Shown here one piece after another: positions 3,284 to 13,380 of a stretch of 64,000 nucleotides of DNA (position 1 is its first letter; the number at the start of each line of letters is the position of its first letter). The DNA comes from an archaeon (lineage in GTDB: Archaea; Thermoproteota; Nitrososphaeria; Nitrososphaerales; CADDZS01), in NCBI GenBank assembly GCA_029850555.1, contig JARCRS010000113.1, positions 1-64,000 on the forward strand. The letters run 5' to 3'. A model generated the notes under the pieces. That model saw only the letters and a list, made by a program, of their open reading frames with translations. It was not told the origin of the DNA and made no database searches. Made by a program: the position numbers and the translations under genes.

Positions 3284-3387
3284 TGGACCGGCTGGGATTT
3301 GAACCCAGGACCCCCACCATGCCAAAGTGTTTAACGCATGAGGATTCATCCAACACGCTGTATCCTACCAGGCTAGACGACCGGCCC
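3284..3387 (-). tRNA. tRNA-Ala(GGC) with a noncanonical 30-nt intron
   Basis: The acceptor stem GGGCCGG pairs with CCGGUCC, including the G3-U70 identity pair of tRNA-Ala, and the discriminator is A. The T arm is CUGGG/CCCAG around UUCAAAU. The D arm is GUCU/GGAU. The anticodon stem (CCACU/GGUGG, last pair U-G) and loop UUGGCAU with anticodon GGC form only if 30 bases are removed between positions 27 and 28 (intron about 3326-3355). The intron folds on itself (GCGUG with CAUGC and a UGAA-capped GGA/UCC stem). The bulge-helix-bulge at the junctions is weak, so the boundaries are probable rather than certain. Confidence 0.85.
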
Positions 3388-3496
3388 TAGACGATGCGTC
3401 ACAATATTGAAAGTGCATGCGATAAAAACCATTCTTCAACTCGGAGGTTCATTAGAAATCGTTTTATCACGAACTACCGAAGGTCAGCTTGGTTTC

Positions 3497-3682
3497 GCGG
3501 CGATCGTCTAGACGCAGCTTGACAAACTCAATCGTAATCCATAATTTCGTTTGAGGAGTTCATCCAATGTTGCGGGAAAGCCTGGTCTAGGACATCAGCC
3601 TGCCAGTTTCAAAAGAAGACCAAACGATCTTGCTTTTGAGAGCAGAGCGCTGGTAACCCGGGTTCGAATCCCGGTCGCCGCA
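3497..3682 (+). tRNA. tRNA-Gly(GCC) with two introns (D-loop and 37/38)
   Basis: Exons 3497-3511, 3581-3605 and 3648-3682 join into a 75-nt tRNA. It has acceptor GCGGCGA/UCGCCGC, D stem GUCU/GGAC, anticodon stem UCAGC/GCUGG, anticodon GCC, T arm CCGGG/CCCGG and discriminator A. Intron 2 (3606-3647) sits at the canonical 37/38 site in an excellent bulge-helix-bulge: central helix CUGC/GCAG, bulges CA^G and AG^C, and a nine-pair intron stem. Intron 1 (3512-3580, 69 nt) interrupts the D-loop after position 15, closed by CGCAGC/GUUGCG beside bulges AG^A and AG^C, with a poorer central helix. The 5' exon is only 15 nt. RtcB at 11932 would be the ligase. Confidence 0.88.
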
Positions 3683-3866
3683 CTTATTCGAATCTAATCA
3701 TATACGTGGAGTCGGCTCATTCAATCACGCGTAATCGTGCAAGATCGTTTGGATGTCGAGGCTAGGTAGCAATTAGAATCGCCGGAATCTTGAGCTGGAC
3801 AAAGCCCTGAAACAGAAGAGAATGATTATATGAAAGATTTTGGAAAATAATCACCCAGAGTATTAT

Positions 3867-11792: not shown

Positions 11793-11931
11793 GAAGGTCT
11801 TAAACTCAAGCCCTGTTATGTAAGGAAATGTTTTTCAGCCAATCAGGCAGATTTTGGCCAAATACCAGCGTGGCGTATCCTAGTTGTCATTCGGTTCCTC
11901 GAAGGCCAGCCTTGCCAATCAAAAGTTCGCG

Positions 11932-13380
11932 ATGAGCAAAGTAAATGATCTGGAGTATCGAATCAACAAGGATGCAAAACAAGGAATGCGCGTTCCTGTA
12001 ACAATCTATGCGAATGATTCTCTGATAGCGAAAATGCAGACAGACAGGACACTAGGGCAGGCCGTGAATGTATCTTTCCTGCCCGGCGTGAAGAAACATG
12101 TCATAGTGCTTCCTGATGGACACGAGGGCTATGGTTTTCCGATAGGAGGAGTAGCGGCCACAGATTTTGAGAAAGGAGTTATCTCGCCAGGTGGCGTAGG
12201 TTACGATATCAACTGCGGCGTGAGATTACTACGAACAAATCTGACTGAAAAAGAGGTCAGACCCAAACTGAGAGAACTCGCCAAGGAGCTCTTTCGCGCA
12301 GTTCCCTCCGGTCTAGGTGCGTCTGGAGCTCTCAACTTAACAAATGCTGAACTCGATCGGGTTCTTTCTGAAGGGGTTAGATGGGCCGTTGATAACGGGT
12401 ATGGCGTTTCTAGAGACCTAGAGTTCTGCGAGGAAAACGGAAACATGAAGCACTCTGATTCAAGCAAAGTCTCTGGAGAGGCAAAGAAAAGAGGGGCTAA
12501 ATCTCTGGGGACTCTGGGTTCAGGCAACCACTTTATTGAAGTTGAATCTGTTAACCAAATAGTCGACCCTGATGCTGCGAAAATATTTGGCATTGAAAAA
12601 ACAAACCAGGTCTGCGTTCTTATGCACACAGGAAGCAGAGGCTTAGGTCATCAGGTCTGCAGCGATTATCTGAGAATAGTCGAGGCAAACGCGTCTGCAT
12701 TTAAAATAGACTTACCTGACAGAGAATTGGCGTGCGCACCTGCCGGGTCGAGAGAAGCAGAAAACTACAGACTTGCAATGGGCGCCGCTCTAAATTACGC
12801 ATGGTCTAATAGACAGGTGATAACACAAAACGTTCGGAAGGCCTTTGAACGCGTTTTCCACATGAGTACATCAGATCTTGAAATGAACCTCGTGTATGAT
12901 GTTGCTCACAATATCTGCAAAGTTGAGGAGCATCTAATTGATTTTGATAATCCGAAGAAGAAGGAAAAAGTGTTTGTCCATAGAAAAGGCGCGACAAGGG
13001 CTTTTCCAAAGGGAAATGACGCCGTAACGATGGCCTACAGAAACGTGGGGCAGCCTGTTCTGATTCCAGGCTCGATGGGGACCGCGTCTTGGGTGTTGCT
13101 CGGCCAGGCGAAATCGCTGGACGTTAGTTTTGGATCGACAGCCCATGGTGCGGGCAGGATGATGTCTAGAGGGGCTGCGATACGAGCATATCCCTACGAG
13201 GAGATAAGGCACGATCTCGAGAGCCGAGGCATCCTGCTTGAAGCCGCGAGCAAGAAGGGAGCAGTGGAAGAAGCTCCTGGTGCGTACAAAGACGTGGATG
13301 CCGTGGCTGAAGTTTCTCACAGGGTAGGAATTGCAACGAAGGTAGTCAGGTTAACTCCAATGGCTGTCGTTAAGGGCTGA
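11932..13380 (+). CDS. rtcB: RtcB tRNA-splicing ligase
   Basis: GTP/Mn-dependent ligase joining 2',3'-cyclic-phosphate and 5'-OH ends of tRNA exons in archaea. Motifs: LPDGHEGYGFPIGG, GGVGYDINCGVRLL with the metal-binding cysteine, LGSGNHFIEV, HTGSRGLGHQV, HRKGATRAFP, GSMGTASW and the active-site histidine in FGSTAHGAGR, which becomes guanylylated. The ATG at 11932 (MSKVNDLEYRINKD) fits the family N-terminus. A TTG at 11884 would add 16 residues. About 482 residues, with no intein. The two intron-bearing tRNAs at 3284-3682 are its expected kind of substrate. Confidence 0.95.
   Translation: MSKVNDLEYRINKDAKQGMRVPVTIYANDSLIAKMQTDRTLGQAVNVSFLPGVKKHVIVLPDGHEGYGFPIGGVAATDFEKGVISPGGVGYDINCGVRLLRTNLTEKEVRPKLRELAKELFRAVPSGLGASGALNLTNAELDRVLSEGVRWAVDNGYGVSRDLEFCEENGNMKHSDSSKVSGEAKKRGAKSLGTLGSGNHFIEVESVNQIVDPDAAKIFGIEKTNQVCVLMHTGSRGLGHQVCSDYLRIVEANASAFKIDLPDRELACAPAGSREAENYRLAMGAALNYAWSNRQVITQNVRKAFERVFHMSTSDLEMNLVYDVAHNICKVEEHLIDFDNPKKKEKVFVHRKGATRAFPKGNDAVTMAYRNVGQPVLIPGSMGTASWVLLGQAKSLDVSFGSTAHGAGRMMSRGAAIRAYPYEEIRHDLESRGILLEAASKKGAVEEAPGAYKDVDAVAEVSHRVGIATKVVRLTPMAVVKG

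Follow-up and report, generated by a model that had tools for sequence, protein, structure and literature searches.

The window, i.e., the whole stretch of 64,000 nucleotides analysed here, belongs to an uncultured Nitrososphaerales archaeon represented by a 2.78-Mb metagenome-assembled genome (MAG) of 237 contigs that is 88% complete. Its plus strand carries an interrupted tRNA-Gly(GCC) gene. Exon 1 (GCGGCGATCGTCTAG; 3497–3511, 15 nt) contributes tRNA positions 1–15, comprising the 5′ strand of the acceptor stem, positions 8–9, the 5′ strand of the D-stem, and A14 and G15. It is followed by intron 1 (3512–3580, 69 nt), which is located in the D-loop at position 15/16. Exon 2 (CCTGGTCTAGGACATCAGCCTGCCA; 3581–3605, 25 nt) spans positions 16–37, with the rest of the D arm, the 5′ strand of the anticodon stem and the anticodon GCC. 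Intron 2 (3606–3647, 42 nt) occupies the canonical position 37/38, while exon 3 (CGCTGGTAACCCGGGTTCGAATCCCGGTCGCCGCA; 3648–3682, 35 nt) supplies positions 38–73, from the 3′ strand of the anticodon stem through the variable loop and T arm to the 3′ strand of the acceptor stem and the discriminator A73.

This join of three exons of 15, 25 and 35 nt had been proposed in a first-pass annotation made from the letters alone, which noted a gap of 69 bases between the 5′ acceptor strand and the rest of the D arm. The join is reproduced base for base, and the gap is intron 1. The joined exons make up a complete 75-nt tRNA-Gly(GCC) with a full cloverleaf, in which exon 1 provides the D-stem strand and 7/7 acceptor pairs; ARAGORN accepts it at full length as tRNA-Gly(gcc) [1,75]. 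The unspliced locus is matched by neither ARAGORN nor Rfam. The joined exons can be aligned without a break, across both junctions, to tRNA-Gly genes of other families that have no introns, and the cloverleaf obtained by removing intron 1 agrees with these homologues, as is characteristic of a non-canonical tRNA intron. A split or permuted tRNA gene is ruled out, as a single strand holds all three exons in their normal sequence over 186 nt.

The MCM gene of the window shares 91% identity with that of the Nitrososphaerales MAG JASHNZ01 (isolate JOPF010) and 78% with that of JASHOD01. Both MAGs contain an orthologous tRNA-Gly(GCC) locus with the same neighbours, and the locus is also found in other genomes of the family. 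A probable TATA-like promoter element, TTTTATC (3462–3468, plus strand), is centred ~32 nt upstream of exon 1, and the element and its flank (AGAAATCGTTTTATCA) are conserved in three species. It stands back to back with a second TATA-like element (3421–3429) between two divergent tRNA genes, an arrangement likewise conserved in three species. The other gene of the pair is a tRNA-Ala(GGC) on the minus strand (3284–3387) with a G3-U70 pair. It has one non-canonical intron of ~30 nt in the anticodon stem, at about 27/28 (boundaries approximate), which is conserved in both relatives.

Structure of the two introns

Intron 2 is inserted at the canonical archaeal site between positions 37 and 38, and the textbook bulge-helix-bulge (BHB) ascribed to it in the first-pass annotation is indeed strict. 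A 4-bp central helix, CTGC (3600–3603, plus strand) paired with GCAG (3642–3645), lies between two 3-nt bulges, CA^G and AG^C. The intron contains a long A/U-rich stem. When the pre-tRNA is folded with RNAfold, pair probabilities are 0.83–0.86 in the central helix and 0.93–1.0 in the inner helix. A perfect 14-nt inverted repeat connects intron 2 (CCAAACGATCTTGC, 3620–3633) with the 3′ flank of the gene (GCAAGATCGTTTGG, 3739–3752), whereas chance alone would yield 0.03 such matches per window; none was seen in the aligned relatives.

The BHB of intron 1 is relaxed, and here too the first reading of the helices proved accurate. All its elements lie on the plus strand. The central helix consists of three pairs, between TCT (tRNA positions 11–13; 3507–3509) and GGA (3575–3577), beside which G10 (3506) forms a mismatch with A 3578, and the motif therefore falls short of the strict BHB with its 4-bp central helix. 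The 5′ splice-site bulge is AG^A (3510–3512) and the 3′ splice-site bulge AG^C (3579–3581). Between the bulges, CGCAGC (3513–3518) pairs with GTTGCG (3569–3574) in an inner helix of six pairs, one of them G-U, which corresponds to the closing stem originally described. Of 50 homologous tRNA-Gly introns, 20 do form a fourth central pair at G10. Published work recognises relaxed BHB motifs (PMC4090602; PMC3978253), and intron 1 thus still fits the broader BHB intron family.

Comparative evidence for intron 1 comes from these 50 distinct tRNA-Gly introns at 15/16, taken from both GCC and UCC genes. The inner helix starts at intron bases +2 and −7 in all of them, and the pair formed there is standard in 50/50, with five pair types represented. 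The two strands of the helix covary: a mean of 2.88 of 3 pairs is formed, vs. 1.38 after shuffling of the intron halves, and none of 5000 shuffles reaches the observed value. Sliding the register of the helix lowers pairing to 1.0–2.0. The shuffles ignore kinship, whereas the slid controls account for relatedness and agree with them; the result was unchanged in an earlier set of 27 loci. At the bulges, the +1 base is A or T in 50/50 introns, and AG, AA or AT precedes the 3′ cut in 48/50. Intron 1 thus has a conserved paired stem beside its splice bulges. Its GGA strand is left out as evidence because the search pattern partly imposes it. In an RNAfold prediction of the whole pre-tRNA, the central helix of intron 1 has a probability of 0.003 and the motif lies ~3 kcal/mol above the free fold. 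This result weighs little against the intron, since RNAfold also misses the cloverleaf of the mature tRNA.

Splice position, 5′ end and copy number

Eight distinct species of the family have a tRNA-Gly(GCC) gene, and in every one of them both introns interrupt it at the same two points. The exons of these genes are identical save for one T-loop base (A or G), while the introns vary in length (27–90 nt for intron 1, 22–50 nt for intron 2) and diverge in sequence. Together with the covariation of the inner helix, this shared site upholds the proposed location of intron 1 directly after position 15. A cut at 13/14 or 14/15, with the gene otherwise the same, is very unlikely. AG repeats on both sides of the intron in the window do allow three alternative cuts that lead to one identical mature sequence. 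However, the 3′ ends of the introns vary (AG, AA, AT, TA, AC) while the AG ahead of the 5′ cut is kept, which indicates that A14-G15 derives from exon 1, although many of the introns compared were retrieved with a pattern that itself contains this AG. The site 15/16 is likewise favoured by introns ending in AT or AA in relatives (L054, L057 and the Gly-UCC genes), and by the BHB geometry, with its AG^N bulges at that position.

A tRNA with a single intron would begin within intron 1, at 3572 or up to a few bases upstream (GCGGGAAAGCCTGG...), with GCGG as the 5′ acceptor strand and the match further upstream as a remnant. Automatic predictions lean this way: ARAGORN places the 5′ end inside intron 1 ([169,241]) when intron 2 alone is removed, and a tRNA-Gly covariance model reports 3572–3682 at 47.9 bits, with its 5′ end in the same region. 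The ARAGORN model starting in intron 1, however, has mismatches in its acceptor stem and a D-stem of poor quality, set against the seven of seven acceptor pairs given by exon 1. Moreover, exon 1 has the same sequence in all eight species, whereas the end of the intron differs, GCGG being replaced by GTGG (L056) or GAGA (L062), and the Gly(UCC) genes show the same layout of exon 1 and intron without the GCGG mimic. A true 5′ end at GCGG is thus extremely improbable. The false 5′ end within intron 1 is the misannotation to be expected of automatic tools, and both ARAGORN and the covariance model err in this manner.

It is just as hard to credit that the locus is a decayed pseudogene and that the true tRNA-Gly(GCC) gene lies elsewhere. 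The incompleteness of the host MAG leaves room for such a gene, but the exons have stayed unchanged across eight species while introns and flanks diverge freely, and the locus is the sole Gly(GCC) found in each family genome. Besides it, the host yielded glycine tRNAs with the anticodons UCC and CCC. A separate intron-free Gly(GCC) gene, which the first-pass annotation had put forward as the finding that would speak against its reading, was sought with a mature tRNA-Gly covariance model in nine family genomes (MAGs 67–96% complete). None occurs among the top-scoring matches read, where such a copy would be expected, lower-scoring matches having been read in part. The search also returned Gly(CCC) genes, including one that lacks introns, along with the known GCC and UCC loci; the ninth genome (G050) gave no Gly(GCC) match. 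The locus is therefore almost certainly a functional tRNA-Gly(GCC) gene, present in single copy, whose two archaeal BHB introns, the non-canonical one in the D-loop at 15/16 and the canonical one at 37/38, are both predicted to be spliced.

The tRNA set of the host is intron-rich as a whole. Most of its 17 Rfam-detectable tRNAs span >90 nt with introns reported by ARAGORN, and few are intron-free. A T-arm pattern search for a tRNA inventory gave counts no higher than its control. A probable tRNA-Glu of 186 nt (contig C99; L088, 219–404) appears to be interrupted by introns, one in the D-loop and another close to the anticodon, which reads CTC by eye; the join is not confirmed by ARAGORN. The stretch compared in a second copy (L087, contig C71) is identical.

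Distribution and splicing machinery

A D-loop intron of this kind is less of a rarity than the first-pass annotation implied. The host's own Gly(UCC) gene (contig C227) has introns at 15/16 and 37/38, and the 15/16 intron is found in at least seven families of Nitrososphaerales; tRNA genes with multiple non-canonical introns were, moreover, already known in Thaumarchaeota (PMC8450103; PMC3218864). The host Gly(CCC) gene (contig C31) has one intron, at 37/38. A strict short-intron pattern for 15/16 in tRNA-Gly matches 42 of 300 Nitrososphaerales genomes, distributed over seven families (f1, f3, f4, f7, f10, f12, f14), and its reversed control matches none of the 300. These counts are lower bounds, because longer introns such as that in the window escape the strict pattern. 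The pattern has no match in the two most heavily sampled families (f8, f9), which, to judge from their size and number, are probably the cultivated ammonia oxidisers. With a looser pattern, five matching genomes are found outside Nitrososphaerales. In the host's family, every genome in which the gene is readable keeps the 15/16 intron, in Gly(GCC) as well as in Gly(UCC). In other Nitrososphaerales families, tRNA-Gly genes (L068, L071, L072, L074, L103) are interrupted by introns elsewhere in the D arm, within the anticodon stem and ahead of the T arm, and some of these genes appear to have three introns.

The 15/16 intron lies directly 3′ of G15, the archaeosine site, and the host encodes a TGT-family protein. 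There is a slim chance that the intron is retained because it times or guides D-loop modification or folding, rather than being neutral.

The host encodes two EndA-family proteins, of 190 aa (contig C81) and 208 aa (contig C128), each with both PF01974 and PF02778 and each matching solved archaeal splicing endonucleases. The 190-aa protein aligns with crenarchaeal catalytic subunits through the conserved His region and retains the catalytic-triad His, which the 208-aa protein lacks in the alignment. Judged by sequence, the pair, a catalytic and a structural subunit encoded as distinct EndA-fold proteins, corresponds to an (αβ)2-type splicing endonuclease. Endonucleases of the α2β2 type that are lenient on splice sites have been described in Thaumarchaeota (PMC4090602). 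The expected exon-joining enzyme, the tRNA-splicing ligase RtcB, is encoded 8 kb downstream of the tRNA gene in the window (11884–13380, plus strand; Pfam PF01139, E = 1.8e-171).

From these components we infer a course for transcription, cleavage and ligation, and an order of splicing. The pre-tRNA would be transcribed from the upstream TATA-type promoter, after which exon nucleotides would base-pair with each intron's 3′ end and so present two bulges. Both introns would be excised by the two-subunit (αβ)2-type endonuclease. Upon excision of intron 1, the pairing of positions 11–13 with GGA would melt, allowing positions 10–13 to pair with 22–25 as the mature D-stem. RtcB would then ligate the exons into a 75-nt tRNA that decodes GGC/GGU codons.

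Comparison with known tRNA introns

The multi-intron tRNA genes of Thermoproteales such as Pyrobaculum (Sugahara et al., 2007, 2008; Fujishima et al., 2010; as reviewed in PMC4090602) share several features with the gene described here: more than one intron per gene, canonical and non-canonical sites, strict and relaxed BHB motifs, and an α2β2 endonuclease. Thermoproteales belong, however, to a different class of archaea from the host. The passages of that review on non-canonical positions name 20/21, 22/23, 25/26, 29/30 and others up to an “etc.” without spelling out 15/16, nor do they describe the recurrence of one D-loop site across glycine isoacceptors. Novelty of the exact position 15/16 is not claimed.

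Nearer to the host, 107 non-canonical introns are reported for Thaumarchaeota genomes in the accounts of tRNAscan-SE 2.0 (PMC8450103) and Chan et al. (2011; PMC3218864), and some of the genes are multi-intron. These are introns of the same kind in the same phylum-level group, although the host's uncultured family is probably absent from the genome set of those accounts. D-arm introns are also known from tRNA genes of Caldiarchaeum subterraneum, where the detailed example is a tRNA-Thr(GGU) interrupted at 24/25 and 45/46, as opposed to 15/16 of tRNA-Gly (PMC3293823). Among Asgard archaea, 92–95% of the tRNA genes of Atabeyarchaeia and Freyarchaeia have introns, over half of them several and many at non-canonical sites (PMC11291895), and the likeness to the present introns is drawn from their description.

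Given these precedents in Thermoproteales, Thaumarchaeota, Caldiarchaeum and Asgard archaea, the tRNA-Gly(GCC) gene is a well-supported further example of a known gene type. It is of modest additional interest that one D-loop site immediately after G15 recurs in two glycine isoacceptors and seven families. Standard tools overlook the gene or place its 5′ end wrongly, which bears on tRNA counts and on completeness estimates of archaeal MAGs, and the 50 tRNA-Gly introns provide a natural series for testing what an endonuclease acting on relaxed BHB motifs accepts.
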